DNA of 64,000 bases from Flavobacterium sp. WC2421 (lineage in GTDB: Bacteria; Bacteroidota; Bacteroidia; Flavobacteriales; Flavobacteriaceae): contig NZ_CP162004.1 in the NCBI RefSeq assembly GCF_040822115.1, positions 620,001 to 684,000 on the forward strand. Reading direction: 5' to 3'. Positions within the stretch are counted from its first letter, which is position 1, and each line of letters opens with the position of its first letter. A program made the translations under genes and the position numbers. The notes beneath the pieces are model-generated. The model had not been told where the DNA came from. It searched no databases and saw only the letters and a list, made by a program, of their open reading frames with translations. Of this stretch, positions 9,773-51,419 are shown in pieces.

Positions 9773-9793
9773 TAAATGTATTTTTTACATTTA
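9773..9793. promoter_or_regulatory. AraR-type operator upstream of the symporter
   Basis: TAAATGTA-TTTTT-TACATTTA, a perfect 8-5-8 palindrome; one more base pair on each side also matches. It is the most symmetric of five related boxes in the window and lies about 230 bases upstream of the start codon. Confidence 0.75.
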
Positions 9794-9795
9794 TT

Positions 9796-9809
9796 ACAGA
9801 TGAATCTGT
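9796..9809. promoter_or_regulatory. Palindrome ACAGAT-GA-ATCTGT
   Basis: Perfect 6-bp arms separated by two bases, directly next to the AraR-type box and upstream of it with respect to the symporter. It could bind a second regulator, such as an activator. Confidence 0.35.
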
Positions 9810-9909
9810 TAAATTTTATTTTATTATTCCGTAAACAACTATAATACAATGTTTTATAATTTATTTTTATGTTGATTATATCTTGTTATAAATGACACAA
9901 TCACTATTA

Positions 9910-10929
9910 TTAGTTTTTATTCCTGATCTTCTGCTCCCATTTCCAAGCACTTGCTATCCCTTCTTCAAGTGTAGCTTGTGTTTTCCATCCAAGAATAGTA
10001 TTTGCTTTATCTGTATTGGCATAAGCCGAAACAACGTCTCCTTCTCTTCTACCAACAATGGTATAAGGCAATTTTTGACCGCTTACTTTTTCGAATGCTT
10101 GAATCACCTCCAAAACCGAACTTCCAGTTCCTGTCCCCAGATTAAACGTTTCTATTTTAGCCGAATTTTTTTTGTTTACTAATCGTTGCAAAGCAATAAC
10201 ATGTGCTTTAGCTAGGTCAACAACGTGGATATAATCCCGAACGCAAGTACCATCAACAGTTGGGTAATCATCCCCATAAACCGAAAGTTCTTTTCTCAAA
10301 CCCATTCCAGTTTGTGTGATAAAAGGGACTAAGTTTTGTGGTACTCCAACGGGTAATTCACCAATTTCGATTGATGGGTGCGCCCCAATAGGATTAAAAT
10401 AACGCAACAAAATAGCAGTTATACCACTTACTTTTGTAACATCAGTGATGATTTCTTCCCCAATTTGTTTGGTGTTCCCATAAGGAGACATGGCGGGCTT
10501 AACTGATGCGTTTTCATTAATAGGCATTACATCTGCTTGACCATAGACAGTACACGAAGAACTAAATATAAAATGTGACTCTTCTTTTTGTTGCAATTCC
10601 TGAAGCAAATAGATTAACGAACTTATGTTATTTTCATAATACAATAAAGGATTCCCCACACTTTCACCTACTGCTTTTGATGCCGCAAAATGAATTACGC
10701 CAACAACATCAGGATGTCTTTTAAAAAAATCTTGAACAGCTATTTTTTCTCTTAAATCTAACTTTTCAAAAAGGGGCTTTTTACCTGTTATAGCAACTAT
10801 ACCATTTAAAACATCCTCAGTAGCATTAGAAAGATTATCGATAATGACAACATCAAAACCTTCATTTTGTAATTCAACAACAGTATGCGATCCAATAAAT
10901 CCTAATCCGCCAGTAACTAGTATTTTCAT
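9910..10929 (-). CDS. galE: UDP-glucose 4-epimerase
   Basis: 339 residues, standard length for GalE, a short-chain dehydrogenase-fold enzyme that interconverts UDP-galactose and UDP-glucose with bound NAD. The N-terminal MKILVTGGLGFIGSHTVVEL carries the GxxGxxG nucleotide-binding motif. FSSSCTVYG contains the catalytic serine/threonine region, and SPYGNTKQIGEE the YxxxK pair. It is last in the minus-strand LacZ-GH36-galE run, 34 bases after the GH36 stop. With galM, galK and galT further upstream it completes the Leloir pathway. Confidence 0.96.
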   Translation of the reverse strand: MKILVTGGLGFIGSHTVVELQNEGFDVVIIDNLSNATEDVLNGIVAITGKKPLFEKLDLREKIAVQDFFKRHPDVVGVIHFAASKAVGESVGNPLLYYENNISSLIYLLQELQQKEESHFIFSSSCTVYGQADVMPINENASVKPAMSPYGNTKQIGEEIITDVTKVSGITAILLRYFNPIGAHPSIEIGELPVGVPQNLVPFITQTGMGLRKELSVYGDDYPTVDGTCVRDYIHVVDLAKAHVIALQRLVNKKNSAKIETFNLGTGTGSSVLEVIQAFEKVSGQKLPYTIVGRREGDVVSAYANTDKANTILGWKTQATLEEGIASAWKWEQKIRNKN

Positions 10930-10963
10930 ATTTTACAATTTTATAATATGCTTTTTCTAAATT

Positions 10964-13186
10964 TTATTTCACTTCTGTTATTTCAAGAACTACACTTGTT
11001 CTTCTCAAATTCACATTTGGATTGATCCCTGCTTTCATCAAGAAATCACCACTATACACCTTGTCAGAAGCAATTGAGGATGTTGTTCCTGGAAACAGGT
11101 TAATTTCTTTTACCGTATATTTTTTCTTTGGATCCAAACCGTTTAATACAACTGGTCGCTCAGTTGCTGTAATACTAAACCTATTATTCACTAAGTAATT
11201 AAAAACGACAGCTTTGCTTTTCTCTGGATTTACATACATTAACGCTGCGATATCATTTTCATGAGGATTAACCAAACGAAACATATCTCCATGCCAAACA
11301 ACATCTTTAAATGAATTGTAATTTGAAATAGCTTGTTTGCAAAATGTTTTATCATCGGGATTTAATTTGCTTGCTACAATATCAAAACCTAATTTTCCCA
11401 TACTAGCCACATCAACTCTAAATTTTAGTGGTTGTTTACCCCAATCCGTTACGTGGTTGCAAGTTGTAATCGAAGGAAAGAAATAGGAATAATCCCATTG
11501 AACAAATATTCTTTCTAAAGGTTCCGTATCATCCGTTGGCCAAAATTCTGTAAAATACTTCAAGAATTCATAATCGCCACGACCACCTCCGCCAGAGCAT
11601 AACATCATTGGCACTTTTGGGTATTTAGCTCTAATCCGCTGTAGTACTTTATACAATCCTTTAGTATAATCAACGTACAAATTAGATTGTGGCAATCCCT
11701 TTTTATTAAGATATGCCGAATAAGCGTTATAAATTGTCGCATTACAATCCCATTTTATAAAGGCTAATTCGGGATTTTTTACAAATAAATCATCTACAAC
11801 ACCAAATACAAAGTCCTGTACTTCGGGATTTGACAAATCTAAAACAAGTTGGTTTCTATAATAAATCTCAGGTCTTTCTGGTTGACGAATTACCCAATCT
11901 AAATGTTTTTCATACAACTCACTTTTAGGATTTACCATTTCAGGCTCTATCCAAATACCGAATTTCACCCCTTCTTTTTTGGCTTCTTTAACCAAATAAC
12001 CTAAGCCACTTGGTAATTTCTTTTTATTTTCTTGCCAATCACCAAGCCCAGCATTGTCACCATTTCTTGGATATTTATTTCCAAACCAACCGTCGTCTAA
12101 CAAGAACATATCGACACCCAAGTCTTTAGCGTCTTTAAATAAGTCTTTTATTTTATTTTCATCAAAATCAAAGTAGGTAGCTTCCCAATTGTTCAACAAG
12201 GTAAGTCGTTCTCCTTCGCCATCTAAAACTCTATATTTTCTTGCCCAATCGTGTAAATTCCTACTAGCATCTCCTGTTCCATGATTTGAAAGCACATAAA
12301 TTAAAGAAGGCGTTTTAAAAACTACATTTGGAGCCAATAAATATTCCGAAGCAAAAGGATTGATTCCTGCAATTAGCCTAAGATTTTTATTAGAGTCGAC
12401 TTCAAATTCCAATTTAAAATTACTACTCCAAGCTAATTGTCCTAGCAATACCGTTCCTTCATTTTCTGATGCAGGTTTTCCAAACGAGACCATAAAATTA
12501 GGACTTTGCGTAAGCATCGCTCTAGTTCCCAATTTGCTGTCCAGAGATCTCATTCCTTGTACAAGCTTAGTCTCCGCAGGTTGCATTTCTTTTAGATATT
12601 CTCCTTGAAAACTGGTGAGATAGAAGTTTTTTCCTCCAAAAAATAAATTTGCCGAAGCGTATTTTTGTAACAATACCGCTTTCTTTTCATTGTGTTTTAT
12701 TTCAGTCCATTGTTCGATTACATTTTCCTTTGGCCAAACTTTATAAAACAAAGTTACCTCAAATGGATAAACGGGATCTTTAAGAACGATACTTGTAAGA
12801 GCGCTATTAGCGTCAATTTTTTCCGTTTTATGACTTACATATTTCAGTTCTAAAGAAGTGTTTCCATCAGCATGTTTGACCTGGATTGCTGGTTCACTAA
12901 GATTCCAAGTACCAGATGGTGTATATGCTGAATTGTAAATTCCCTGATTAGAATAATCATAATTATATCCAGCTGAAACCGCTGCGAATTCATTTTCGTT
13001 TTCAAGTGGTTTACCAAAATAAACGGTCATCAAACGGTTGTCATTATCTGTTTGCAACAGCATCATATTGCTATTAGTAGCAATAGGTATTGTCACTTTC
13101 TGGGCCCATAAACTAATTGCGCCAAACATAAAAAACAATGTAAAAACACCTTTTAAATGGAAACAGCATTTTAATTTTTCTTTCAT
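10964..13186 (-). CDS. Secreted GH36 alpha-galactosidase
   Basis: 740 residues from ATG 13186; a longer in-frame TTG start at 13207 is less likely. A signal peptide ending near SLWAQ directs it to the periplasm or outside. An N-terminal beta-sandwich is followed by the (beta/alpha)8 barrel beginning around LLNNWEATYFDFDENKI and FLLDDGWFG. The nucleophile aspartate lies in FIKWDCN (about residue 480). CSGGGGRGDYE and WPTDDTEPLERI, with the acid/base aspartate (about 550), complete the GH36 signature. It removes alpha-1,6-galactose from raffinose-type sugars or galactomannan side chains. Neighbours are LacZ and galE. Confidence 0.92.
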   Translation of the reverse strand: MKEKLKCCFHLKGVFTLFFMFGAISLWAQKVTIPIATNSNMMLLQTDNDNRLMTVYFGKPLENENEFAAVSAGYNYDYSNQGIYNSAYTPSGTWNLSEPAIQVKHADGNTSLELKYVSHKTEKIDANSALTSIVLKDPVYPFEVTLFYKVWPKENVIEQWTEIKHNEKKAVLLQKYASANLFFGGKNFYLTSFQGEYLKEMQPAETKLVQGMRSLDSKLGTRAMLTQSPNFMVSFGKPASENEGTVLLGQLAWSSNFKLEFEVDSNKNLRLIAGINPFASEYLLAPNVVFKTPSLIYVLSNHGTGDASRNLHDWARKYRVLDGEGERLTLLNNWEATYFDFDENKIKDLFKDAKDLGVDMFLLDDGWFGNKYPRNGDNAGLGDWQENKKKLPSGLGYLVKEAKKEGVKFGIWIEPEMVNPKSELYEKHLDWVIRQPERPEIYYRNQLVLDLSNPEVQDFVFGVVDDLFVKNPELAFIKWDCNATIYNAYSAYLNKKGLPQSNLYVDYTKGLYKVLQRIRAKYPKVPMMLCSGGGGRGDYEFLKYFTEFWPTDDTEPLERIFVQWDYSYFFPSITTCNHVTDWGKQPLKFRVDVASMGKLGFDIVASKLNPDDKTFCKQAISNYNSFKDVVWHGDMFRLVNPHENDIAALMYVNPEKSKAVVFNYLVNNRFSITATERPVVLNGLDPKKKYTVKEINLFPGTTSSIASDKVYSGDFLMKAGINPNVNLRRTSVVLEITEVK

Positions 13187-13276
13187 AATAATTATTTTAA
13201 GTAGCAACCTCTTGCAACAGTTTCGATTATATAGCAGTCCTATTTTACAACATATAAAATAGGACTGCTAATCTAT

Positions 13277-16793
<3,517 letters not shown>

Positions 16794-18311
16794 TTACCAA
16801 TTGGCATTTTGAGTCATCTTAGGATTATTGTTTAATTCACTTTCTGGAATAGGAAAGTAATTGTATTTGGCTGAGTAATTATTGTAGCCTTCTCTTAAAC
16901 TTTCTTTAATCACTTTTTCTAATGTACCCCATCTTCTTAAATCATACCAGTGAAGTCCTTCACGAGCAAATTCAACATTTCTTTGATGCATAATTTCATC
17001 CATCATTTGAGTTTGAGTCCATCCTGTCATTACAATGCTAGTTAGCTTCGCTCTGTCTCTAATTCTTTTAACTAAAGGGATTGCACTTGCCACTTTTCCT
17101 TGCATAGTTTGCGCTTCAGCAAGCATTAAAAGTACATCGGCATAACGCATAGCGTATTCATTCAATTCTGATTTCCAATCTCCTTCATCGTTATTCCACC
17201 AGTTTTGATTTTTTCTAATCCAAATAGCATTTGCTCCAAATTTTGTTGCAAAATCAGCATTATAATACATGCTTCCTGGGTAGTTCCATGCCAAAGTAGC
17301 CGTCGCTCTTGGATCAAAACCTCCATCTACCGTTTTCTCTTTGGTCATTGCATTCAATAATGTTTTTGAAGGCAATAACTCAAACCATCCACCTACTTCA
17401 CCAGGAGCACATTCTTGAGCCATTGTTGTAGCTCTAGTTCTTTGTGCTGGTTCTCCTCCCCAAATAGTTGCTCCACCTACTCTACTAAACTGAATTTCAA
17501 ATACAGATTCTTTACTGTTCTCATGCTTACCATCAAATAATTGAGCATAATCATCCAAAAGACCGTATCCATTTGTCCCTTCGTTATTTACTAATTTAGC
17601 AAATTGCTCTTCGGCTTTTGCCCACTCTTTTCTATATAAATACGCTTTTCCAAGATAAGCAATAGCAGTATTTTTAGTTACTCTCCCTTTTAAAGCCGCA
17701 GGATATATTTCTGGTAACGGACTAGTAGCTGCTAATTGAAAATCAGCAATTATTTGGTTCCAAACTTCATCTTCAGTCGACTTTTCTTTAAAGTAATCGG
17801 ATGGGTCTTTTACTAAATCAGTAAATATTGGCACACTTCCAAATTCAATTACTAAATTAAAATAATTCAATCCTCTTAAAAAACTAGCTTCGGCAACTAA
17901 TTGCGCTCTTTTAGTTTCATCAATATTTTGGATTTGTGGAGCATAATTTATCACCTGATTGGCACGAAATATCCCTATGTACATTGCTTTAAACATCCCT
18001 GTAGTTTCTGCCGTACTAGGACTATTTTTATAAGTAGCGACTGCAAAACGTCCAGGAACGTCATTTCTAGCAATAAAGTTTTCTGTTCTATTCTCTTTTA
18101 ATTGCATGGCTTGAATTTCCCAATACCCTGCATTATTATTATCTACTAATGTATTATATACCGTAGCTAATCCAGACTCCAGATCGGCTGGTGTTTGCCA
18201 GAAAGATTCTGTTGTTAATTTATTTGGGTTCCCGAATTCAAGGTTGTCCGAACAAGAACTTAGCGTTACAAGTCCACCCATAAAAAATACTATGATTAAT
18301 TTCTTTTTCAT
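16794..18311 (-). CDS. susD: SusD/RagB-family outer-membrane glycan-binding lipoprotein (galactoside locus)
   Basis: 505 residues from ATG 18311; a longer in-frame start at 18344 would overlap the SusC stop and lacks a signal sequence. The lipoprotein signal MKKKLIIVFFMGGLVTLSSC ends at the lipidated cysteine, followed by acidic SDNLEFGNP, which favours surface export. The N-terminal LTTESFWQTPADLESGL, TPR-like helices, and C-terminal EFAREGLHWYDLRRWG and YFPIPESELNNNPKMTQN are classic SusD motifs. It caps the SusC channel and binds oligosaccharide. It starts 11 bases after the SusC stop. Confidence 0.95.
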   Translation of the reverse strand: MKKKLIIVFFMGGLVTLSSCSDNLEFGNPNKLTTESFWQTPADLESGLATVYNTLVDNNNAGYWEIQAMQLKENRTENFIARNDVPGRFAVATYKNSPSTAETTGMFKAMYIGIFRANQVINYAPQIQNIDETKRAQLVAEASFLRGLNYFNLVIEFGSVPIFTDLVKDPSDYFKEKSTEDEVWNQIIADFQLAATSPLPEIYPAALKGRVTKNTAIAYLGKAYLYRKEWAKAEEQFAKLVNNEGTNGYGLLDDYAQLFDGKHENSKESVFEIQFSRVGGATIWGGEPAQRTRATTMAQECAPGEVGGWFELLPSKTLLNAMTKEKTVDGGFDPRATATLAWNYPGSMYYNADFATKFGANAIWIRKNQNWWNNDEGDWKSELNEYAMRYADVLLMLAEAQTMQGKVASAIPLVKRIRDRAKLTSIVMTGWTQTQMMDEIMHQRNVEFAREGLHWYDLRRWGTLEKVIKESLREGYNNYSAKYNYFPIPESELNNNPKMTQNANW

Positions 18312-18321
18312 TTTTGTCGAT

Positions 18322-21300
18322 TTAAAAGTTAAGTTGAATTCCAAATGTAATTGTCTTGCTTAACGGATAAGATTTATAATCTATCCCTCTACCTCCAAGT
18401 CCATCACTTGAAACATCTGGATTATATCCTGTATACTTAGTAAAAGTATGCAAGTTGTCTCCGGCAACATATAATCGGCATCTGTCAATCGCTAATTTTT
18501 GACTTAAGCTATTCGGGATAGTATACCCAACTTGGACCGTTTTGATTCTAAAGTAAGAACCGTTTTCAAGAAAACGATCAGAATAGTCTGCTCCATTATC
18601 ATTTAAATCGTCAATGTCCAATCTTGGGAAATTTGAATTTGGATTAAATGTATAAGAGTTTAAAGTTGCACTAGAATAATTAATGTTTGATCTTACAGTA
18701 GCGATATCCGTATTATTACCATTATAAATCATATTTCCTTGCGTCCCTTGAGCTGCTATTGTAAAGTCAATTCCTTTCCAATCAGCTGTAAGACGTAAAC
18801 CATATTCAAAATCTGGGAAAGCACTTCCTCTATACTGTCTATCAGCACCATCAATTTGCCCATCACCATTAAAGTCAACATATTTTATATCTCCTACTTG
18901 TGCTCTTGGTTGGATTGGATTTCCATTTAAAGTATAAGCATCAATTTCTTCTTGAGATCTGAATAAACCATCCGTTTTAACAAGAAAAAAAGAATAAATA
19001 GGATATCCTACTTTACTATACGTTACTGCTGCTCCGTGGAATGATCCACTAGAACCTGCTAGAATTTGACTTCCTGTACTTAAATCTTCTACACGATTTT
19101 TTACACTAGAAATATTAGAAGAAACAGAGAAATTAACTTCTCCTACTTTTTTATTATAAGTCAATCCTAATTCAAAACCTTTGTTAGACACTTTACCAGC
19201 ATTCGTATAAGGGTCATTGCTAGAACCTACTGACAATGGAATTGGCACACGCAAAAGTAAATCTGTCGTATTTTTTTCAAAGTAATCAGCAGTAAAGTCT
19301 AATTGACCATTCCACATTGACAAATCAACCCCTACATTTGCAGTTGCAGTTGATTCCCATTTTAAACCAATTGCAGGATATTCTTGTTGAATATTACCAA
19401 TCCATAATGAATTTGGCTCGCCCACTGCATAGCTGATTCCTGGAGAAATCAAACCAAGATACTGGTAGTCTCCAATTTCTTGATTCCCTAATACACCATA
19501 ACTAGCACGTAATTTTAACTCAGATACAGGTAAGTTTAACTTGGTGAAAAAATCTTCTTTTCCAATTCCCCAAGCTGCAGAAATAGATGGGAAATTCCCC
19601 CATTTGTTTTCTGGGCTAAAACGAGAAGAACCATCACGTCTAAATGTTGCAGTAAAAATATATTTATTGTCATATGAATAAATAGCACGACCAAGGAAAG
19701 ACATTAATTTACTTTCACTTGCTAAACCAACAATTGAAGGATCTTCTGCTCCAGCAAGAACATAAATACCATCAGGTAATCCTGAAACTGAACCTGAAAT
19801 TGAACGAAATTTATTTTCATAAACCGTATGTCCAACTAATAAATTTACAGAATGTTTTCCAAAAGTTTTAGAATAATTCAACGTATTTTCTATTTGATAA
19901 TACTGATTCATATCACTTCCTTCAGCTAAAGTATTCTTTAAATTCTTAAAGAAACCACCCACTTCGTAACGAGGTGTATAATTATAAGCTTTATGCTCAG
20001 AAATAGTTGCCCCTACGTTTAACTTATATTTAAAACCATCAAAAAAACTTGCTTCAGCATAAGTGTTTATCAATGCTTGGTAATAATCATTCTTTACATC
20101 AAAAAGATTCAAAGCAGCAACTGGATTAAATATATCCGTTACTGAACCAGATGCACCTCCATAACCTCCGATGGCGTTTTCGTCATAAATGGCAAAACCA
20201 GGAATCATTGATATTGCTGATCCTACAACATTTCTTCCTTGTCCAGGAACACCTGGTAAATCTTTTCTTTTTTCTTTGGTCAACATTACTGTTTCACCAA
20301 TTTTAAAGATCCCTTTTTTATAATCCGATTTAACTCTTAAATTAACACGGTCATAATTAGTCTCTTTAACAACTCCTTCTTGATTAAAGTAGCTTAATGA
20401 CATACTATACTTCACATTATCAGAACCTCCTGAAAGTCCCAATGAGTAATTTTTAGTTGGAGCCGTTCTGAATATTTCATTTTGCCAGTTTATACCTGCA
20501 CCCGAAACTTCTGGGTTTAGAGCAATATCCAACGGCTGTTTTCCTGCTGCGGTATAGGCCGCAGTACTTACTTTTGCCCATTCCTCTTGATTTAACAAAT
20601 CTAACTTTTTAGCTACGCTTGCAGACCCAAAAGAAGAATTGAAAGATACTTTCATATCTCCCTTTTTACCACTCTTTGTTGTAATTAAAATAACCCCATT
20701 TGCAGCTCTAGACCCATAAATGGCGGCAGCAGATGCATCTTTCAATACTTGAATAGACTCAATGTCATTTGGATTCAAATTATTCATTGATGCTACTGCA
20801 ATATCATCAACTAAAATCAACGGATTATTATTGTTTAATGATCCAGCTCCTCTAATCTGGATTTTAGTTCCAGAACCTGGAGCACCTCCACCTGATTCTA
20901 CTGTTACACCAGCAATTTTTCCCTGAATTGCACTACCTAAATTCGTGTTACTTTGAGCGTCTAATTGTGATGCTTTTAAGCCTCCAACAGCTCCAGTCAT
21001 ATCACTTTTCTTGATAGTACCATATCCAATAATAACAACTTCATCTAAAGTGTTATTTTCTTCATTTAATACTACATTAACGATTTTTCTGCCTTTAACA
21101 GCCTCTTCCACTTTACCATATCCAATGTAAGAGAATACTAAGGTTACATTAGAATCACTTACATTTAATACATAATTTCCATCAACATCAGTCATGGTAC
21201 TATTGGTAGTCCCTTTGACAAGTACAGAAGCTCCAATAATAGTTTGAGATGTCTTTTGATCTATAACAGATCCCTTTATCGTATTTTGAGCTTGCAAACT

Positions 21301-21396: not shown

Positions 21397-21556
21397 AAAT
21401 TCATGTTTTTAATAATTGGTTGGTTAATAATTTTTTTTTTTTGCTTAATCATTCTTAAAAAAAAACACAAAAGTTTTGCAACCCTACTTAAAAAGAAGGA
21501 AATTTAAATTGAGCTCTAATTCAATTTTTAAGTGTATATTTTAAAAGATTTTTTTA

Positions 21557-22609: not shown

Positions 22610-22610
22610 T

Positions 22611-37428: not shown

Positions 37429-37466
37429 ATTTTTAAGGGAATGATTCCTGAATCACTCCCTTAAAA
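37429..37466 (+). terminator. Hairpin immediately after susD, attenuator or RNA-stability element
   Basis: TTTTAAGGGA (37431-37440) pairs with TCCCTTAAAA, enclosing TGATT/AATCA around a CCTG tetraloop, with one A-C mismatch. There is no T-run after the stem, so it may be a partial terminator or an end-protecting structure that raises susCD mRNA over the downstream enzymes. Confidence 0.6.
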
Positions 37467-37500
37467 TTAGCAAACATTTGTCCCAATAAAATAAATTATA

Positions 37501-38673: not shown

Positions 38674-38688
38674 AATAAGCTGAAAACT

Positions 38689-38718
38689 AACCCTATTTTA
38701 ATGAATTAAAATAGGGTT
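38689..38718 (+). terminator. Intercistronic hairpin
   Basis: AACCCTATTTTAAT (38689-38702) and ATTAAAATAGGGTT (38705-38718) are perfect 14-bp complements with only GA between, so the real loop must include some stem bases. It lies between the GH-A and GH43-like genes, 14 bases before the next ATG, and could be an attenuator or processing site. Confidence 0.6.
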
Positions 38719-38732
38719 ATAATACCAATCAC

Positions 38733-39788: not shown

Positions 39789-39792
39789 AAAA

Positions 39793-41544: not shown

Positions 41545-41568
41545 TAGGAACCATATATAAAAAAACTA

Positions 41569-41657
41569 GTGAATTTTTAGTGGTTAAGAAATTCACAAAG
41601 TTGGTTAGTTAGTTTTTTTTTTTAAAATTACCGGACTATTTAAAATAGTCTGGTAAT
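41569..41657 (+). repeat. Two consecutive hairpins between GH93-like and GH2 genes
   Basis: The first is GTGAATTT (41569-41576) / AAATTCAC (41589-41596). The second, about 41627-41657, pairs ATTACCGGACTATT with AATAGTCTGGTAAT, with one G-T wobble, preceded by a run of 12 T. The 177-base gap is the largest inside this PUL and may contain a terminator plus a secondary promoter. Confidence 0.6.
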
Positions 41658-41721
41658 TTATTTAATGACAAAAAAATAACACGTCAATTTAAATGATGTG
41701 TGCTTACAAATAAATAATATA

Positions 41722-43542
41722 ATGATGAAAAAAAATGTACAGGTAATCCTATTTTTATTTTTAGGGTTATCACTATCCGCACAATGGAAACCTGCTGGAG
41801 AAAAAATTAAAACAGTATGGGCAAGTAAAGTAGAACCTAATCATGTACTTCCTGAATATCCTCGCCCAATTATGGAACGAAAGGAATGGAAAAACCTAAA
41901 CGGATTATGGAATTATGCGATTCTAGAAGTTGGAAAAGCAGCTCCTGAGAAATATGACGGTCAAATTCTTGTTCCTTTTGCAGTCGAATCCAGTTTGTCT
42001 GGTGTGATGAAAGATGTTGGCGCTAAAAATGAGCTTTGGTATAACACTAGCTTCACTATAGAATCCAATTGGAAAGGCCAGAATATTTTACTGCATTTTG
42101 GTTCAGTTGACTGGAGAACTGAAGTTTGGTTGAATGGCGTAAAAATAGGTTCCCATACTGGTGGATATACTCCGTTTTCTTTTGATATAACACCTTTCAT
42201 AACTGGAAAAACGCAGCAATTAACGGTAAAAGTTTGGGACCCCTCTAATGAAGGACCACAACCAAGAGGAAAACAAGTTAGGAGCCCAGAAGGAATCTGG
42301 TACACACCGGTTACGGGAATTTGGCAAACCGTTTGGATAGAGCCTGTAAATAAAAAGAATATTACAACGATTAGAACCACGCCAAATATTGATCAGAATG
42401 TGATTAACATAAAACCTGAAGTTGCAGGAGCAAGTTATGGAGATCTAATTGAAGTAACTGTTTATGAGGATTCAAAAGCACTTGTAACTGTTAAAGCTTC
42501 GGCTGGAGAAAATATAGAAATTGTTTTAAATAATCCAAAACTATGGTCACCAGAATCTCCATTTTTATACAAAACCAATGTGAAATTAATTAGCAACAGG
42601 AAAATGGTTGATGAAGTAAAAAGCTATTTTGCCATGCGGAAAATTGGATCTAAAAGAGATTCAAATGGTGTTCTTAGAATGCAACTGAATAATAAAGACT
42701 ATTTCCAATACGGCCCATTAGATCAAGGTTGGTGGCCTGACGGACTATATACCGCTCCTACTGATGAGGCTTTAAAATATGACATTGTTAAGACAAAAGA
42801 ATTGGGTTTTAATATGATTCGGAAACATGTTAAAGTAGAGCCAGATCGCTGGTATACGCATTGTGATGAAATAGGAATTTTAGTATGGCAAGATATGCCA
42901 AGTGGTGATGAGCAACCTATATGGCAAAACAAAAAATATTTTGAAGGTAATGAATTACAAAGAACACCTAAATCTGAAGAAATTTATAAAAAAGAGTGGA
43001 AAGAAATTATGGATCATTTGTATTCCTATCCAAGTATTGTCGTTTGGGTTCCTTTTAATGAAGCTTGGGGACAATTCAAAACCGTTGAAATTACAGACTG
43101 GACCAAGAATCACGATCCAAGTAGATTAGTCAATTCATCTAGTGGAGGAAATCATTTTCAAACAGGCGATATCTTAGATTTACACAATTATCCTGGTCCC
43201 GAATTGTATCTTTATGATGCTAGAAGAGTAACTGTATTAGGGGAATATGGGGGAATTGGATTACCTGTCGAAGGTCATTTATGGAGAGCAAATGACAATT
43301 GGGGGTATGTAAAATTCAAGAATAATGCTGAAGTAACCAATGAATATATTAAGTATGCAACCGAATTAAAGAAATTAGTTAAAACAGGATTTTCTGCAGC
43401 AGTATATACCCAAACTACTGATGTTGAAGGTGAAGTTAATGGGTTTATGACCTATGATAGAAAAGTAGATAAAATGGATTTTGAAAAAGTAAGCACAATC
43501 AATAAAGAAGTTATTGATGCTCTAAATAACAAATCTAACTAA
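41722..43542 (+). CDS. Secreted GH2-family glycosidase (three-domain type)
   Basis: 606 residues from ATG 41722 (an upstream in-frame GTG at 41698 is rejected). Signal peptide ending LSAQW. Jelly-roll domain (LLHFGSVDWRTEVWLNGVKIG), Ig-like domain, and TIM barrel with FNMIRKHVKVEPDRWYTHCDE. Acid/base glutamate is in VPFNEAWG (about 447) and nucleophile in VLGEYGGIG (about 507). It is much shorter than LacZ and has no C-terminal domain. Bacteroidota GH2s of this type include beta-galactosidases and other exo-enzymes; in this PUL a galactosidase acting on arabinogalactan-type side chains is plausible, unproven. Confidence 0.82.
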   Translation: MMKKNVQVILFLFLGLSLSAQWKPAGEKIKTVWASKVEPNHVLPEYPRPIMERKEWKNLNGLWNYAILEVGKAAPEKYDGQILVPFAVESSLSGVMKDVGAKNELWYNTSFTIESNWKGQNILLHFGSVDWRTEVWLNGVKIGSHTGGYTPFSFDITPFITGKTQQLTVKVWDPSNEGPQPRGKQVRSPEGIWYTPVTGIWQTVWIEPVNKKNITTIRTTPNIDQNVINIKPEVAGASYGDLIEVTVYEDSKALVTVKASAGENIEIVLNNPKLWSPESPFLYKTNVKLISNRKMVDEVKSYFAMRKIGSKRDSNGVLRMQLNNKDYFQYGPLDQGWWPDGLYTAPTDEALKYDIVKTKELGFNMIRKHVKVEPDRWYTHCDEIGILVWQDMPSGDEQPIWQNKKYFEGNELQRTPKSEEIYKKEWKEIMDHLYSYPSIVVWVPFNEAWGQFKTVEITDWTKNHDPSRLVNSSSGGNHFQTGDILDLHNYPGPELYLYDARRVTVLGEYGGIGLPVEGHLWRANDNWGYVKFKNNAEVTNEYIKYATELKKLVKTGFSAAVYTQTTDVEGEVNGFMTYDRKVDKMDFEKVSTINKEVIDALNNKSN

Positions 43543-43553
43543 CAGTCGTCACA

Positions 43554-44594
43554 ATGAAAAGATATTTAATGTTGATGTTAATCGTAATTATTTCTGGTTG
43601 CAATTCCGAAACCTATTCGCAAAAAGAAACCTTTACTAATCCTATTTTACCTTCTGGCGCAGACCCATATAGTACGTATTACAATGGATATTATTATTAT
43701 ACACATACGTTGCAAAACAGGTTGGTTTTATGGAAAACTAAAAATCTAGCCGATTTGAAAAATGCAGAGAGCAAAACCATTTGGATAGCACCAAAAAATA
43801 CTGCCTATTCTGGGGACATCTGGGCACCCGAATTTCATATTATAAATGGAAAGTGGTACGTGTATTTTGCCGCAGATAATGGAGACAATAATACCCATCG
43901 AATGTATGTATTAGAAAACAAATCAGACGATCCTTTTAAAGGGGAATGGGAATTTAAAGGAAAAATAGCTGCAAAAACAGATAAATGGGCCATTGACGGA
44001 AATGTATTTTCCTATAAAAATAGCCTATATATGATTTGGGCAGGATGGGAAGGAGATACTAATGGACAACAGAATATCTATATCGCAAAAATGAAAAATC
44101 CTTGTGAAATAGAGGGAGATCGAGTACTAATTTCATCACCAACTCTGGAATGGGAAAAGCACGGAGCCTTAAATGATCCGTCTAATCCACCACAAGTGAA
44201 TGTCAATGAAGGACCACAGTTTTTATCAAATGGAGGCCAAGTTTTTATAGTGTATTCAGCAAGCGGTTGTTGGACTGATTTTTATGCTTTAGGCTTATTG
44301 CATTATAAAGGAATTGGCAATTTACTGGATGCTTCTTCTTGGATAAAATCAGAGCAACCCTTATTTCAACAATCGGTAAAAAACCAAGTTTTTGCACCAG
44401 GACATAATTCGTTTTTCAAATCCCCAAACGGAAAAGAAGATTGGATTTTATATCATGCCAACTCTAATCCTGGGGAAGGTTGTGGAAATAAAAGAGCTCC
44501 AAGAATGCAAAAAATAAACTGGGACTCAAACGGATTTCCTGTGTTTGGAGAACCCCTTAGTGCTGGAACGATACTAAATATTCCTGCCGAATAG
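43554..44594 (+). CDS. GH43 exo-alpha-L-arabinofuranosidase lipoprotein (GH43_26-like)
   Basis: 346 residues. Lipobox IISGC near residue 16. The N-terminal TNPILPSGADPYSTYYNGYYYYTHT carries the catalytic-base aspartate in the arrangement of GH43 subfamily 26 exo-1,5-alpha-L-arabinofuranosidases. SGDIWAPEFHIINGKWYVYFAAD, WAIDGNVFSYKNSLYMIWAG (pKa modulator Asp) and NEGPQFLSNGGQVFIVYSAS (acid Glu) follow, with APGHNSFF holding the conserved His. It would release arabinose from arabino-oligosaccharide ends. It starts 11 bases after the GH2 stop. Confidence 0.85.
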   Translation: MKRYLMLMLIVIISGCNSETYSQKETFTNPILPSGADPYSTYYNGYYYYTHTLQNRLVLWKTKNLADLKNAESKTIWIAPKNTAYSGDIWAPEFHIINGKWYVYFAADNGDNNTHRMYVLENKSDDPFKGEWEFKGKIAAKTDKWAIDGNVFSYKNSLYMIWAGWEGDTNGQQNIYIAKMKNPCEIEGDRVLISSPTLEWEKHGALNDPSNPPQVNVNEGPQFLSNGGQVFIVYSASGCWTDFYALGLLHYKGIGNLLDASSWIKSEQPLFQQSVKNQVFAPGHNSFFKSPNGKEDWILYHANSNPGEGCGNKRAPRMQKINWDSNGFPVFGEPLSAGTILNIPAE

Positions 44595-44627
44595 TTTTCT
44601 TTAAAAACGATATAAAAATTAAAAAAA

Positions 44628-45809
44628 ATGAAAAAAATTCAGATTTACACCGCTATAATTCTTACTGTAATTCAAGTTTCATGCAAAGAAAATAAAAATA
44701 ATAATTCAACTCAAAAAGATATGAATCAAGAATCGACTACTCAATTGGCTAAAAATTCTTTAGAAAATAAAAATTTTGAAACAGTAATAGACAATAAAAA
44801 GACGAGCTTATATTGGATCGAAAATAACGGTTTAAAAGCGGCTTTCACCAATTACGGAGGAAGATTAGTAGGATTATGGTTAATAGATAAAAATGGAAAA
44901 GAAACTGATGTTGTAGTTGGAATGAACAGTGTCATTGGGTTTCAAAAATCGACAGAACCCTACTTTGGAGCTACAATAGGTAGAGTTGGAAACCGAATTG
45001 CAAAAGGGAAGTTTACCCTTGAAGGTAAAGAATACAATGTTCCTTTAAATAACGGAGAAAATGCATTGCATGGTGGTAAAAAAGGCTTTCAAGATGTAGT
45101 GTGGAGTGCGGATAAAACGGATGAGCATACTTTAATTTTGACCTACATTGCTGCTGATATGGAACAAGGATTTCCTGGAAATCTACACGTAAAAGTAACC
45201 TACAGTATTACTGCAGATAAAACTTTAAAAATGGAATATGAAGCCACCACTGATAAAACTACCATTGTTAATTTAACCAATCATGCTTTTTTTAATTTAA
45301 ATGGAGAAGGTAGTGGTACTATTTTGAACCATGAATTACAATTATTTGCACAACAATATACACCAGTAGATTCTGGTTTAATTCCAACTGGTAAATTAGA
45401 AAATGTTGCTGACACCCCTTTTGATTTTCTTGAAAAACACACTATTGGAGAGCGCATTGAGACTAAAAACGAACAGCTAGAGTTTGGAAAAGGCTACGAT
45501 CATAATTATGTCCTAACTGGAGATATTAAAGATGGAATGCAACATGCGGCTACAATTACTGGAGACCTTTCGGGGATTTCTATGGATATATATACAACCG
45601 AACCTGGAATTCAGTTTTACAGTGGCAATTTTATGCAAGGTAAAAACACATTTAAATCAGGTGCAAAAGATAATTTTAGAACCGCATTCGCTTTAGAAAC
45701 ACAACATTTTCCAGATGCACCAAACCAACCAAATTTCCCATCGATAACCTTAAAACTGGGTGAAAAATATCACACAATCTCGTATTACCACTTTTCAATT
45801 CGTAAATAA
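44628..45809 (+). CDS. Aldose 1-epimerase lipoprotein
   Basis: 393 residues, a GalM-fold mutarotase with a lipobox (VIQVSCKEN) and a 50-residue polar linker. Motifs: YFGATIGRVGNRIAKGKF, NNGENALHGGKKGF, NLTNHAFFNLNGEGSG with the catalytic His, and FALETQHFPDAPNQPNFPS with the catalytic Glu. Because it is exported, it should equilibrate anomers of released sugars (galactose or arabinose) in the periplasm before transport. It is a distant paralogue of the cytoplasmic GalM encoded at 26339. Confidence 0.93.
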   Translation: MKKIQIYTAIILTVIQVSCKENKNNNSTQKDMNQESTTQLAKNSLENKNFETVIDNKKTSLYWIENNGLKAAFTNYGGRLVGLWLIDKNGKETDVVVGMNSVIGFQKSTEPYFGATIGRVGNRIAKGKFTLEGKEYNVPLNNGENALHGGKKGFQDVVWSADKTDEHTLILTYIAADMEQGFPGNLHVKVTYSITADKTLKMEYEATTDKTTIVNLTNHAFFNLNGEGSGTILNHELQLFAQQYTPVDSGLIPTGKLENVADTPFDFLEKHTIGERIETKNEQLEFGKGYDHNYVLTGDIKDGMQHAATITGDLSGISMDIYTTEPGIQFYSGNFMQGKNTFKSGAKDNFRTAFALETQHFPDAPNQPNFPSITLKLGEKYHTISYYHFSIRK

Positions 45810-45831
45810 AATGATCTCTAATTAAACTCAA

Positions 45832-46833
45832 ATGAAAAAAATTTATATAATTCTATTTTTAGGACTAAGTTTAAGTTCTTGTTCTCAACCAAAAGGAGAA
45901 GATAAAATAACCCCTGCCCCCCCAGTAGCATTAAAAGATATTTTTCTAGCAGATCCTACCATTTTTTATAACGATGGAACCTATTACTTATACGGAACAA
46001 CTACTGGAAACACAACTGTTATTGGAGAAGGCTTTCAGGTGTATACCTCAACTGATCAAAAAAATTGGAAAGGACCCGTAGGTGCTCAAGGTGGTCTTGC
46101 ACTCAAAAAAGGAGATGCATATGGAACAACCGGATTTTGGGCTCCACAAATAATAAAGTATAACAATCTATTTTATATGATTTATACTGCCAATGAAAAT
46201 ATTGCCGTTGCAACAAGTAATAACCCGATTGGACCATTTAAAAATACAACAAAAGAACCTCTAGTAGCTCTAGTAAAGCAAATAGACCCATTTGTATTTA
46301 TAGATGATGATGGCAAAAAATATTTATATCATGTTAGACTTACAAATGGAAACCGAATTTTTGTAGCCGAAATAAATGATGACCTTTTAAGTATAAAACC
46401 AGAAACACTAACAGAATGTATCTCTGCACAACTACTATGGGAAAACACCCAAAATGTAAACTGGCCAGTTGCCGAAGGGCCTACAGTGATAAAAAAAGAG
46501 GGCTTGTATTATTTAATTTATTCAGCAAATGATTTTAGAAATCCTGACTATGCCGTAGGATACGCTACCAGTAAAAGTCCCTTAGGACCTTGGGAAAAGG
46601 CAGCAACGAGTCCTATTATTTCTCGAAATTTAATTGGAGAAAATGGAACCGGTCATGGTGATTTATTTTTGGACAAAGAGAACCAGTTGCAATATGTTTT
46701 CCATACGCATTTCAATGGTGCTCAGGAAGCACCCAGAAAAGCAGCAATTATTGAAATGAATTTTACTAAAAAAGAAAATGCATTTCAATTAGAAGCAAAA
46801 AAAGAGACTTTCCGATTCTTGAAGACTAATTAA
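45832..46833 (+). CDS. GH43-family glycosidase lipoprotein
   Basis: 333 residues, last gene of this PUL. Lipobox LSSC followed by SQPKGEDK. Five-bladed propeller with the base Asp in IFLADPTIFYNDGTYYLYGTT, GFWAPQIIKYNNLFYMIYTAN, the modulator Asp in QIDPFVFIDDDGKKYLYHV, the acid Glu in WPVAEGPTVIKKEGLYYLIYSA and the conserved His in GTGHGDLFLD. All catalytic positions are present. The subfamily is not obvious, so arabinofuranosidase, xylosidase or galactosidase activity remain open. A terminator follows. Confidence 0.82.
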   Translation: MKKIYIILFLGLSLSSCSQPKGEDKITPAPPVALKDIFLADPTIFYNDGTYYLYGTTTGNTTVIGEGFQVYTSTDQKNWKGPVGAQGGLALKKGDAYGTTGFWAPQIIKYNNLFYMIYTANENIAVATSNNPIGPFKNTTKEPLVALVKQIDPFVFIDDDGKKYLYHVRLTNGNRIFVAEINDDLLSIKPETLTECISAQLLWENTQNVNWPVAEGPTVIKKEGLYYLIYSANDFRNPDYAVGYATSKSPLGPWEKAATSPIISRNLIGENGTGHGDLFLDKENQLQYVFHTHFNGAQEAPRKAAIIEMNFTKKENAFQLEAKKETFRFLKTN

Positions 46834-47007: not shown

Positions 47008-47017
47008 CATACATTTG

Positions 47018-47038
47018 TAAATGTATTTTTTACACTTA
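47018..47038. promoter_or_regulatory. AraR-type operator upstream of transketolase
   Basis: TAAATGTA-TTTTT-TACACTTA. It differs from the symporter box at a single base. An overlapping TACATTT-GT-AAATGTA symmetry (47010-47025) shares the left arm, so two binding registers are possible. Confidence 0.72.
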
Positions 47039-47231: not shown

Positions 47232-49271
47232 ATGAACCAAAAAATTGACCAATTAGCTACAGACAACATAAGAGCGCTTTCCATTTCAATGGTAGAAAAA
47301 GCCAATTCAGGACATCCTGGAGGCGCCATGGGTGGTGCCGATTTTATGCATCTTTTATATACGGAATACCTCAACTTTGACCCAACCGAAATGGATTGGC
47401 CATACAGAGACCGTTTCTTTATGGATGCTGGACATTTATCAGCATTAATGTATTCTCAATATTATTTATTAGGAAATTACAAAAAAGAAGACCTTCAACA
47501 ATTTAGACAATGGGGCTCCGTAACGCCAGGACATCCCGAAGTGGATGTTTTGAGAGGTATTGAAAATACCTCGGGACCATTAGGACAAGGTCATGCTATG
47601 GGTGTTGGAGCAGCTATTGCCGCCAAGTTTCTTGATGCAAGATTCAAAGGGCTTTTTGAGCATAAAATATACGGTTTCATCACTGATGGTGGTGTTCAAG
47701 AGGAAATTTCTCAAGGGGCAGGTAGAATTGCTGGACACTTAGGATTGAATAATTTCATCATGTTTTATGATTCTAATGATGTGCAACTTTCGTCAATGAC
47801 AGATGAAGTAACATCCGAAAATACCGCCATGAAATATGAGGCTTGGGGTTGGAACGTAATCACAATTGATGGTCATGATCATACTCAAATAAGAAAAGCA
47901 CTTAGTGAAGCACACGAAGAAGTTGAAAAACCTACTTTGATCATTGGGAAGACAATTATGGGAAAAGGTTGTGTTACAGCAACTGGGGCGATGTATGAAG
48001 GAGAATGTGAATTGCATGGAAAACCTATTGGTGATACAAAAGCAGATTACGTAAAAACACTTTTAAATCTAAAAGCAAATCCCGAAGATCCATTTGCTAT
48101 TTATGAAGAAGTCGCAAAACATTACGCTAACATCCTTGAATTAAAAACAGCAACATCTGCTAATAAAAAACTCCAAATCGCTTCTTGGAAAAAAGAAAAT
48201 CCAGCACTTTCTTTAAAACTAGAATCGTTTTTATCTGGTGAAATTCCTGATTTAGATTTAAGCAGTGTTGTTCAAAAACCAAATGTAGCAACAAGAGAAG
48301 CTTCTTCTGCTGTACTTGCCTATTTAGCAGAAAACGTAGAAAATATGATTGTTTCATCGGCAGATTTATCGAACAGTGACAAAACTGATGGATTCCTTAA
48401 AAAATCATCGATTTTACAAAAAAATGATTTTAATGGTGCCTTTTTACAAGCTGGAGTGGCTGAATTAACAATGACTTCCATCGCAAACGGAATTGCGCTT
48501 CATGGTGGTGTAATCCCTGTAGTAGCGACATTTTTTGTATTCTCCGATTATATGAAACCAGCTATTCGATTAGCAGCTATTCAAGAATTACCTGTAAAAT
48601 ATGTTTGGACACATGACTCGTTTCGCGTTGGTGAAGATGGACCTACGCACCAACCTATCGAACAGGAAGCACAAATTCGCTTGATGGAAAAAATTAAAAA
48701 CCATTCAGGGAATCAAAGTTTATTGGCCTTACGCCCTGCCGATGCGATAGAAACATCAGTAGCTTGGGATATGGCATTAAAAAACACTAAAACTCCAACT
48801 GGTTTAATTCTTTCGAGACAAAACATTCAAGATATTCCTGCACAAGGAACTTCAAGATACGAAGAGGCTACAGAAGCGTCAAAAGGCGGATATTTAGTAA
48901 AGTCAACTCAAAATCCAGATATCACATTAATCGCAAATGGTTCGGAAGTGGCAACCCTTTTAGCTGCTGCAGTTCTATTGGAAAAAGAAAAAAATCTAAA
49001 AATAAATGTAGCCTCCATCATTTCTGAAGGATTATTCAAAGAGCAATCTAAATCGTACCAAGAAAGTATAATTCCAAAAGGAAAATTAGTTTTTGGCCTT
49101 ACTGCTGGACTACCCGTAAATCTTGAAGGTTTGATAGGAGATAGCGGAAAAGTAATTGGGCTAGACCATTTTGGATATTCGGCACCAGCAACAGTTTTAG
49201 ATGAAAAATTTGGATTTACAAGTGCACATGCTTGCGAAGAAATCCTAAAATATATTGAAGAAAGTAAATAA
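47232..49271 (+). CDS. tkt: Transketolase
   Basis: 679 residues, full-length single-chain transketolase, thiamine-diphosphate dependent, moving two-carbon units between pentose and triose/hexose phosphates. Thiamine-binding region GFITDGGVQEEISQGAGRIAG and YDSNDVQLSS; N-terminal KANSGHPGGAMGGADFMH; the pyrimidine-domain motif VWTHDSFRVGEDGPTHQPIEQ. It is co-transcribed with transaldolase (27-base gap). The AraR-type box upstream places it in the arabinose response, likely as a dedicated copy for pentose catabolism. Confidence 0.96.
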   Translation: MNQKIDQLATDNIRALSISMVEKANSGHPGGAMGGADFMHLLYTEYLNFDPTEMDWPYRDRFFMDAGHLSALMYSQYYLLGNYKKEDLQQFRQWGSVTPGHPEVDVLRGIENTSGPLGQGHAMGVGAAIAAKFLDARFKGLFEHKIYGFITDGGVQEEISQGAGRIAGHLGLNNFIMFYDSNDVQLSSMTDEVTSENTAMKYEAWGWNVITIDGHDHTQIRKALSEAHEEVEKPTLIIGKTIMGKGCVTATGAMYEGECELHGKPIGDTKADYVKTLLNLKANPEDPFAIYEEVAKHYANILELKTATSANKKLQIASWKKENPALSLKLESFLSGEIPDLDLSSVVQKPNVATREASSAVLAYLAENVENMIVSSADLSNSDKTDGFLKKSSILQKNDFNGAFLQAGVAELTMTSIANGIALHGGVIPVVATFFVFSDYMKPAIRLAAIQELPVKYVWTHDSFRVGEDGPTHQPIEQEAQIRLMEKIKNHSGNQSLLALRPADAIETSVAWDMALKNTKTPTGLILSRQNIQDIPAQGTSRYEEATEASKGGYLVKSTQNPDITLIANGSEVATLLAAAVLLEKEKNLKINVASIISEGLFKEQSKSYQESIIPKGKLVFGLTAGLPVNLEGLIGDSGKVIGLDHFGYSAPATVLDEKFGFTSAHACEEILKYIEESK

Positions 49272-49298: not shown

Positions 49299-49955
49299 AT
49301 GAAATTTTTTATAGATACAGCAAATTTAAAAGACATTAAAGAGGCAAATGATTTAGGAATCCTAGATGGTGTAACTACTAACCCATCATTAATGGCAAAA
49401 GAAGGAATTACTGGTGCAGCTAATATCATTGCTCATTATGTAAAAATATGCGAATTAGTTGATGGCGATGTTAGTGCCGAAGTAATTTCAACTGACTTTG
49501 AAGGAATGGTTGCCGAAGGAGAAAAATTAGCTGCCTTGCATCCACAAATTGTAGTAAAAATCCCAATGATAAAAGACGGGATCAAAGCAATAAAATACTT
49601 TTCGAACAAAGGAATAAAAACCAATTGCACTTTGGTGTTTTCGGCAGGTCAAGCTTTATTGGCAGCCAAAGCAGGTGCTACTTATGTTTCTCCTTTTATA
49701 GGAAGATTAGATGACATCTCTACCGATGGTTTAACACTTATCGAAGACATCAAATTAATTTATGACAATTACGGTTACGAAACTCAAATTCTAGCCGCAT
49801 CAGTACGTCACGTCATGCATATTTTAAATTGTGCTAAAATTGGTGCCGATGTAATAACTGGACCATTGAGTGCTATTGAAGGCTTGCTAAAACACCCACT
49901 TACAGATATTGGTTTGGCTACATTTTTAGCCGATTATCAAAAAGGAAATAGTTAA
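49299..49955 (+). CDS. tal: Transaldolase, short (TalC/MipB) type
   Basis: 218 residues, the short transaldolase/fructose-6-phosphate aldolase subfamily. N-terminal [20 protein letters not shown] then [14 protein letters not shown]; the Schiff-base lysine is in [25 protein letters not shown] and [13 protein letters not shown] are family motifs. It completes the non-oxidative pentose phosphate branch with transketolase. The short type could have fructose-6-phosphate aldolase activity instead, but operon context favours transaldolase. Confidence 0.95.
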
Positions 49956-50159: not shown

Positions 50160-50849
50160 TTAAAGATTCAGTACAAAATCATTCAATAATTTCGCATCGT
50201 ATTTTTCTTTGTCAAAAGTATACAGATACGACCCTTTTCTAGAAGACATCATATCTTTCTCCTCTAATTTTATCAAAATATCCAATGAATTTATTTTACT
50301 GATAAAATTCCTTTTATCCAGCTCTTTGCTTAAAATTGCTTCATACAATTCTAACAATTGACGCATCGTGAATTTTTCAGGCAAAAGTTCAAATCCTATT
50401 GGTTTAATCGAAGTTCTATAACGCAATCTTCTTATAGCATGTCGTAGCATCGAATCATGGTCAAAAATTAATTTTGGAGCATTCGAAACACTAAACCATT
50501 GTGCATGATAATTTTGAATCAACTCTGCATTATGATTTTCAATATTAATTAAAGCATAATAAGCTACTGAAATAGTTCTCTCGACAGGGTCACGATCAAT
50601 ATCACTATAAGCATGCAACTGCTCCATATAAATATCTTGAAGTCCCGTATAACTATTAAGGATTCTTAGTGCAGCAGCATCTAATACTTCTTCTTTTTTA
50701 AGAAAGCCTCCTATTAAAGACCACTTCCCTTTTTCTGGTTCAAAATCCCTCTTTATCAAAAGTATTTTTAAACCTTCATCATCAAAACCAAAAATGATAC
50801 AATCTACTGCTAATAATACTTTGTCAGCAGAACTATAACTATTAAGCAT
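50160..50849 (-). CDS. araR: Nudix-fold transcriptional regulator, probable AraR
   Basis: 229 residues, same architecture as the regulator at 5271: Nudix fold (LAVDCIIFGFDDEGLKILLIK, GKWSLIGGFLKKEE) and a C-terminal winged helix (PIGFELLPEKFTMRQLLELYEAILSKELD). The Nudix box is even more eroded, RILNSYTGL in place of RExxEExG, so catalysis is excluded and sugar sensing likely. In Bacteroides, AraR of this family is a repressor released by L-arabinose (known). Divergent from the arabinan susC, with one AraR-type box near its own promoter and two near susC, it is the best candidate for the operator-binding protein of this window. Confidence 0.85.
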   Translation of the reverse strand: MLNSYSSADKVLLAVDCIIFGFDDEGLKILLIKRDFEPEKGKWSLIGGFLKKEEVLDAAALRILNSYTGLQDIYMEQLHAYSDIDRDPVERTISVAYYALINIENHNAELIQNYHAQWFSVSNAPKLIFDHDSMLRHAIRRLRYRTSIKPIGFELLPEKFTMRQLLELYEAILSKELDKRNFISKINSLDILIKLEEKDMMSSRKGSYLYTFDKEKYDAKLLNDFVLNL

Positions 50850-50900
50850 ACTCCTTTTTTAGGGTAAATATATAAACTTCCTCATCCGTTTCATAATTTA

Positions 50901-50921
50901 TTAATGTGGTTTTTACACTTC
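50901..50921. promoter_or_regulatory. AraR-type operator near the araR-like gene
   Basis: TTAATGTG-GTTTT-TACACTTC, the most diverged of the five boxes. It lies 52 bases upstream of the regulator's start codon, consistent with autoregulation. Confidence 0.55.
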
Positions 50922-51299
50922 GTAAATTATAAAGGGTAAATCACAGCTAAATTATGTTCGGAAATTGAGATAGTAGTTGTTTTAATTTTGGATATCGTTC
51001 TTATCATTAATAAAAGAAGGCCACTATCTTTTTTTTAAGTTAATTCAATTAATGAAGCACTTTATTACCGTTTTACCATTCCAAAATACCTGCGATTTGT
51101 TAAAAAAGGATGCTGTAATAAGCTTTTATTACACAATACTACCCTGATTTATAGTTAAAAACGCAAATAAATCCTGATTTTAATAATAATTATTCACTGC
51201 TGATTTTTTGATTAAATAATCGCTTTTTTAATGAAAACACTACCTTTTATATAAATAAATTGTAAAAACGTTATGGTTTTTTAAAAAAAATACAATTTT

Positions 51300-51320
51300 T
51301 AAATGTTGTTTTTACACTTA
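51300..51320. promoter_or_regulatory. AraR-type operator, distal to susC
   Basis: TAAATGTT-GTTTT-TACACTTA; its right end runs into TTAATTTG, a possible -7 element, so binding would occlude the promoter. Confidence 0.68.
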
Positions 51321-51398
51321 ATTTGCAATATGTGTTTTTTTTCGATATTTTTTTTACCATATTAATTTGTTTTTATAGTTTTTTTTTAATTAAATTTA

Positions 51399-51419
51399 CA
51401 AATGTAAAATATACACTTA
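51399..51419. promoter_or_regulatory. AraR-type operator, proximal to susC
   Basis: CAAATGTA-AAATA-TACACTTA, 22 bases upstream of the susC ATG and about 100 bases from the distal box, a spacing that would allow DNA looping or independent blocking of two promoters. Confidence 0.65.

Follow-up and report, generated by a model that had tools for sequence, protein, structure and literature searches.

A 64,000-nucleotide stretch of the genome of Flavobacterium sp. WC2421 (the window; bases 620001–684000 of a genome scanned as a single contig of 3,833,975 bases) contains five copies of a 21-bp palindrome, together with a gene at 50160–50849 for a regulator of the NrtR family. We consider it very probable that these boxes and this protein belong to a Flavobacterium AraR regulon. 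The boxes stand at promoters and their exact copies are restricted to one part of the genome. In the genus they occur together with AraR, and the protein retains the residues that in AraR of Bacteroides thetaiotaomicron (BtAraR) hold L-arabinose. An earlier sequence-only reading of the window had proposed a dispersed arabinose regulon with the 50160–50849 protein as the most likely binder. This proposal is supported here, since the boxes track the AraR orthologue within the genus and the rival paralogue has a different candidate motif.

The box in the window, the genome and the genus

The operators and their targets in the window are as follows.

9773..9793, minus strand: predicted symporter operator, exact match
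7857..9542, minus strand: sodium:solute symporter (SSF)
47018..47038, plus strand: predicted transketolase-transaldolase (tkt-tal) operator, exact match
47232..49271, plus strand: transketolase
49299..49955, plus strand: transaldolase / fructose-6-phosphate aldolase-like protein
50160..50849, minus strand: araR, NrtR-family regulator (degenerate Nudix sugar sensor and winged helix), assigned from Pfam, identity to BtAraR and residues
50901..50921, minus strand: candidate AraR operator before araR (autoregulation), two mismatches, conserved in relatives
51300..51320, plus strand: predicted distal susC operator, exact match; its start is 99 bp from that of the proximal operator
51399..51419, plus strand: predicted proximal susC operator, one mismatch, over the expected start site
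51442..54489, plus strand: susC-type TonB-dependent receptor of an arabinan locus
54520..56082, plus strand: susD of the arabinan locus
56172..63363, plus strand: downstream enzymes of the arabinan locus, namely
56172–57716, plus strand: alpha-L-arabinofuranosidase
57728–59341, 59386–60381 and 60392–61378, plus strand: three GH43 enzymes
61399–63363, plus strand: GH127 beta-L-arabinofuranosidase

The consensus against which the matches are counted is TAARTGT-N7-ACAYTTA. All five boxes are intergenic, each 5' of a gene, and all have TACACTT or TACATTT as their right arm; in these respects, and in its coordinates, the sequence-only reading was accurate. The window has a GC content of 34%. Allowing one mismatch, it contains four matches where 0.23 are expected, and none of 100 shuffles reaches four, so these four boxes are well above chance. 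Allowing two mismatches, there are seven matches where 3.3 are expected, and 5 of 100 shuffles reach seven. The box at 50901 is weak alone and needs the support of relatives, discussed below.

In the whole genome the exact consensus occurs five times (629773, 667018, 671300, 685536 and 693080), and the reversed control pattern not at all. All five sites lie between 629773 and 693100, that is, within 63 kb, and the probability that five random places would fit so short a span is about 4e-7. The first three are in the window and the other two lie past its right end. The box at 685536, 1.5 kb beyond the end, is 46 bp 5' of the ATG of ribulokinase (araB), which is followed by L-ribulose-5-phosphate 4-epimerase, L-arabinose isomerase and a galM-type mutarotase (araB-araD-araA-galM); a one-mismatch box is found 89 bp upstream of it. 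The box at 693080, 9 kb beyond the end, is directly 5' of the start of a GH97 gene. These are the only exact sites outside the window, and the genome scan for the box at araBAD and other arabinose genes, as the earlier reading had proposed, therefore has the result that counts in favour of that reading. The regulon is not, however, complete in the window, as had been claimed, since two of the five exact sites, including that of araB, are outside it.

With up to two mismatches allowed, matches in the genome are no commoner than those of the reversed control (146 against 188), so the signal would be lost with a loose matrix; exact matches were preferred for genome-wide scans. Outside the cluster there are 11 places with one mismatch, 7 within open reading frames (ORFs) of at least 100 aa and 4 outside. 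These were judged to be chance matches; the one nearest an ORF start precedes a UvrD-type helicase.

The box was then compared with the presence of AraR in 199 Flavobacterium genomes, of which 57 have the orthologue (called at E <= 1e-70) and 142 do not. The exact box occurs 220 times in the former and 23 times in the latter, with 29 and 42 matches respectively for the reversed control. Two or more exact boxes are found in 51/57 genomes with AraR and in 1/142 without (Fisher 1.8e-39, a p-value that ignores shared ancestry). Four genomes have AraR and no exact box (G115, G119, G122 and G182); in the stretches examined they carry one-mismatch boxes before araR or araB. In eight relatives with AraR, all 34 exact boxes are outside ORFs (here at least 150 aa, or at least 80 aa with a match to a window gene), whereas 7 of 8 boxes examined from Flavobacterium genomes without AraR are inside ORFs, two of the seven being copies in one genome.

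Counted by genome, the boxes of these eight relatives precede araB in six, the symporter orthologue in five, tkt in two and GH97 in two, and lie in the araR-susC region in four. There are 11 further boxes. Four precede SusC-type receptors and two precede genes weakly similar to glycosidases; single boxes are found before a melibiase, a lectin-domain protein and a hybrid histidine kinase, another is next to galE where a contig ends, and the last is at a place without an identified gene. Of 189 sites taken from relatives, 169 have at least one GTGT half. In four genomes that keep AraR (G115, G085, G192 and G031), the ribulokinase matches were counted with one or two stop codons inside, which may reflect decay, errors in the sequence or no more than the end of the frame.

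A sceptical view would be that the boxes are AT-rich palindromes due to chance, or parts of a dispersed repeat. The base composition and the lack of enrichment at two mismatches are compatible with this. However, the exact matches are clustered and intergenic, and their position and spacing are kept across species even though large parts of the leaders of tkt and the symporter differ. Exact boxes are also rare in genomes of the genus without AraR. The ORF placement and the co-occurrence speak strongly against this explanation, and we give it almost no weight.

The regulator and its paralogues

The 50160–50849 protein contains the Pfam domains NUDIX, NrtR_WHD and AraR_C, all above their cut-offs. 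It is 47% identical to BtAraR (5BS6), ungapped over 217 aa, and among solved structures BtAraR scores 229 bits and the runner-up 79 bits. The genome encodes five winged-helix proteins of the NrtR type, and the other four are 34–43% identical to BtAraR, a comparison of pairwise identities. Judged from these sequences the protein is the AraR orthologue. The earlier reading had called it a local paralogue of the known AraR, a description that instead suits the xylose-side gene at 5271–5990. The 50160–50849 protein scores 135.3 bits against the NCBIfam model for NrtR, the NAD regulator (NF050029), below the cut-off of 400, and its gene does not adjoin xylA or xylB, so that the clustering with xylose genes of the XylR type is not found.

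The arabinose-binding pocket is almost entirely retained. The hydrogen-bonding residues R34, R86 and H131 are all present, as are Y5, F36, the GGF sequence and F129, the sole change being V92T. The Nudix motif is impaired, with three of four glutamates replaced; inspected by eye, the alignment has RILNSY in place of REUxEE. The DNA-reading trio K179-R180-N181 is also kept. The pocket and the trio are general among the orthologues, as seen in 80 loci (the best 80 of the matches listed, from named records, mostly Flavobacteriia). R34, R86, H131, Y5, F36 and F129 are invariant in all 80, as is the KRN trio, while F49 is present in 79 (F49L in one) and position 92 is T throughout. Another protein, 53% identical, has M179, so that its trio reads MRN; its genome (G038) has five boxes.

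The boxes could in principle belong to another NrtR-family regulator of the genome, above all to the 5271–5990 paralogue, which is itself in the window. Some observations favour this. In G043 an exact box lies about 54 bp before an NrtR-type gene whose product is only 39% identical, and the genomes G037 and G052 have boxes but only proteins of about 39–40% identity; moreover, the proteins of all three carry KRN. The box is thus apparently usable by other branches of the family. The rest of the evidence runs the other way. Neither the KRN trio nor the whole arabinose pocket is found in any of the four paralogues: R86 and H131 are in all of them, and one (L003) also has R34 and F129, while their trios read KSN, RRN, NRN and RGN. 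Among 37 genomes of the genus, the eight that have NrtR-type matches but no AraR contain either no exact box or one. The genomes of three proteins that read RRN have 0, 0 and 1 boxes.

In addition, the 5271–5990 gene has a candidate palindrome of its own. It follows xylA (2108–3430) and xylB (3427–4932) at the left end of the window, and is preceded by TTRTGGT-N7-ACYACAA at 4999–5019, with a weaker tandem copy at 4976–4996. This motif, at up to two mismatches, is found in 8/9 upstream regions of genes of this type, although the consensus was drawn from the same regions, without a shuffle control, and is for that reason described only as a candidate. A scan of the genome for it at up to one mismatch gave no enrichment (16/18 versus 23/18). 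The palindromes between xylB and the paralogue are a candidate operator for XylR; they share the 7-bp centre of the AraR box and have a different half-site. Residue 180 is R in AraR and S in the xylose-side paralogue. We therefore regard it as very unlikely that a paralogue, rather than AraR, is the protein that binds the boxes.

Operators, promoters and points of doubt

The -7 box of the flavobacterial sigma-A promoter has been described as TAnnTTTG, at -12 to -5 (PMC9723704), and boxes of this kind lie at or near the operators in the window.

9737..9744, minus strand: symporter -7 box TACTTTTG, 28 bp from the operator
47010..47017, plus strand: tkt -7 box TACATTTG, abutting the operator
50865..50872, minus strand: araR -7-like box TATATTTA, 28 bp downstream of the operator
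51391..51398, plus strand: susC -7-like box TAAATTTA, abutting the proximal operator; a TTTG precedes the box by 21 bp

The araB operator is located 44–48 bp before the ATG, with TATATTTG 13–15 bp after it, in 30/30 loci including that of this genome. This distance implies that the operator would cover the -33 region. For susC, the arrangement TTTG-N21-TAAATTTA ends where the proximal operator begins in all 28 sequences with a 99-bp operator pair, the window included, and for tkt TACATTTG abuts the operator start in 3/3 sequences. Because the -7 boxes end where the operators begin, the susC and tkt operators would cover the start site.

The operators of araB and susC are often paired. At araB the two are 89 bp apart in 23 loci and 88 bp in 3, with no second operator found in 4/30 loci. 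At susC they are 99 bp apart, start to start, in 27/80 loci and in the window, and the six other spacings are all from Lutibacter and Mangrovimonas loci. The constant spacing was considered as proof of looping and rejected, because the intervening sequence is itself partly conserved. A weak extra box, TTTGTGT-N7-ACACTTT, is seen in 11 of the loci L088–L166, 64–66 bp nearer to araR than the distal susC box and hence at a near-constant distance from it. An Rfam scan of the window at gathering thresholds gave no match, so the leaders of tkt and the symporter, of about 200 nt, match no Rfam family.

Several observations weigh against the assignment of an arabinose regulon repressed by AraR. The araR box at 50901–50921, taken singly, is at chance level, given the small excess of two-mismatch matches in the window. 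It is, however, backed by relatives: a box 45–65 bp 5' of araR is kept at up to two mismatches in 59/80 orthologue loci, whereas the reversed pattern, with as many mismatches allowed, has only five matches over the full 800 bp upstream at these 80 loci. Secondly, three of the six base-contacting residues differ from those of BtAraR (K184S, K204R and R205K). The six were described as absolutely conserved among Bacteroidetes AraR orthologues (PMC4666351), which makes them a reported correlate of the group rather than its definition, and the 80 loci depart from this, with S or N at position 184 in 79/80 and K at 205 in 79/80. Thirdly, one exact box among the relatives (L194, G030:C17) is about 186 bp 5' of the hybrid histidine kinase gene, which has no evident link to sugars.

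A fourth point concerns the place of the operator at araR and the symporter. In 5/6 symporter sequences it precedes the -7 box by 28 bp, and the distance is exactly 28 bp in 46/63 araR promoters with a box (the -7 pattern here also allowed a final A). This is an unusual place for simple blocking, and an operator that far upstream of the -7 box is in a position more typical of activators. AraR may thus be an activator, or have a dual role, at these promoters, where the operator is centred near -51. At araB, susC and tkt, on the other hand, the operator overlaps or abuts promoter elements. In addition, BtAraR binds DNA in its apo form, and L-arabinose releases it and induces the genes (PMC4666351). 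Activation by AraR at some promoters is in our view improbable, though it deserves more weight than the other alternatives.

Finally, the same box occurs where no close AraR is present. The genomes G037 and G052 belong to one genus, from a different family of the same order. Each has three exact boxes, and all six are intergenic (loci L258–L263). Five are 27–81 bp before genes of starch use, glycolysis, fermentation or redox metabolism: 4-alpha-glucanotransferase, a ROK-family glucokinase-like protein, phosphate acetyltransferase, a pyridine nucleotide-disulphide oxidoreductase and class II fructose-bisphosphate aldolase. The sixth is between two distant iron-sulfur enzyme genes. The best NrtR-type proteins of these genomes (39% identical) have KRN and K184, but N34, E or D36 and S47, and therefore lack the arabinose pocket. 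Counterparts in the sister genome have the box with one mismatch (glucokinase), three (aldolase and phosphate acetyltransferase) or four (GH77), while the best match of the reversed control in the same 300 bp has three to four; positional conservation between the two is thus convincing for the glucokinase pair only. G052 also has four reversed-control matches.

Because these boxes precede genes with no link to pentoses, the box alone is no proof of an arabinose regulon. It goes with a branch of the NrtR family, and the arabinose assignment rests on the pocket and on the target genes, which this genome has. It is conceivable, although we put this forward tentatively, that the AraR box is a DNA word common to a broader branch of Nudix-type regulators whose sensors differ, and that the KRN protein of G037 and G052 uses it on central carbon metabolism. 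If so, this Nudix-type protein would regulate sugar flux and not a single pentose. A KRN protein without the arabinose pocket, with boxes at glycolytic and fermentation genes, suggests that in this family the reading of DNA evolves independently of the sensing of sugars.

The symporter is likely to import L-arabinose and/or D-galactose, a specificity suggested by its surroundings. In relatives, galT-galK and AraR are found near the symporter in 3/5 stretches, a hint that the symporter carries both sugars. In the window, a galactose block (galE, GH36, GH2, SusCD, galT, galK, GH2 and aldose epimerase; 9910–27418) separates the boxed symporter from a GntR-type regulator (27464–28489). A second locus (28522–46833) encodes a SusD, several GH43 enzymes and a hybrid two-component regulator; the 1003-aa ORF 5' of its SusD (32866–35877) is presumably the SusC. 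The window scan found no AraR box at up to one mismatch in this locus, which is probably under its hybrid regulator.

Comparison with known systems

By analogy with BtAraR, we infer DNA binding, repression, and induction by L-arabinose. The AraR dimer without ligand would bind the palindromes and block transcription of the susC operon (the arabinan importer and enzymes), the symporter, araB-araD-araA-galM, transketolase-transaldolase, GH97 and araR itself. L-arabinose freed from arabinan or arabinogalactan would then bind the Nudix domain, which is catalytically dead; the winged helices would rotate and AraR would come off the DNA, so that uptake, isomerisation, phosphorylation and the pentose-phosphate step would be induced together.

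The closest known system is BtAraR (BT0354; PDB 5BS6, 5DD4, 5DDG and 5DEQ), whose regulon was first predicted in 2013 (PMC3878776). Its apo form binds the operator, and the complex is impaired at 0.01 mM L-arabinose and abolished at 0.5 mM, with D-xylose only partly active; the domain movements have also been described (PMC4666351, Chang et al. 2015). The two proteins share the NrtR-family architecture of a Nudix-like sensor and winged helix, the three residues that hydrogen-bond arabinose and the impaired Nudix motif. The 21-bp operator has the same geometry, with a 7-bp centre (GTGT-N7-ACAC in the crystal), and the targets are similar: the ara catabolic operon, SusCD, GH43, GH51 and GH97, with tandem operators.

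There are also differences. The half-site is RTGT in Flavobacterium and GTGT in the crystal operator, the first base being relaxed from G to R, and the proteins differ at the residues noted above (K184S, K204R, R205K and V92T). The Flavobacterium araR gene lies apart from the ara operon, unlike that of Bacteroides. Paired operators are 88–89 and 99 bp apart, start to start, whereas 3 bp or 42 nt between sites are given for Bacteroides (PMC4666351). Transketolase and transaldolase are under the box in Flavobacterium, and neither word occurs in the main text of PMC4666351.

Two other members of the family are relevant. XylR of Bacteroides (BT0791) is likewise of the NrtR family, and the 5271–5990 paralogue stands beside xylA-xylB as XylR does; its candidate half-site (TTRTGGT, about the same 7-bp centre) makes it an unlikely binder of the AraR boxes. 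NrtR itself, the ADP-ribose-responsive regulator of NAD genes in Shewanella and Synechocystis, shares the fold and the winged-helix family, and the 50160–50849 protein differs from it in its targets and its ligand pocket.

An AraR of this kind is thus already known from gut Bacteroides, and no paper on a Flavobacterium AraR was found in searches of open-licence literature. What is added here is the Flavobacterium regulon, the relaxed half-site, the spacing of the paired operators and the transketolase-transaldolase target. This extends AraR from gut Bacteroides to Flavobacterium with a genome-wide map that can be tested, names members beyond the window (araBDA-galM and GH97), adds enzymes of the pentose-phosphate pathway, and allows AraR to be compared with a xylose paralogue whose candidate motif has equal spacing and another half-site.

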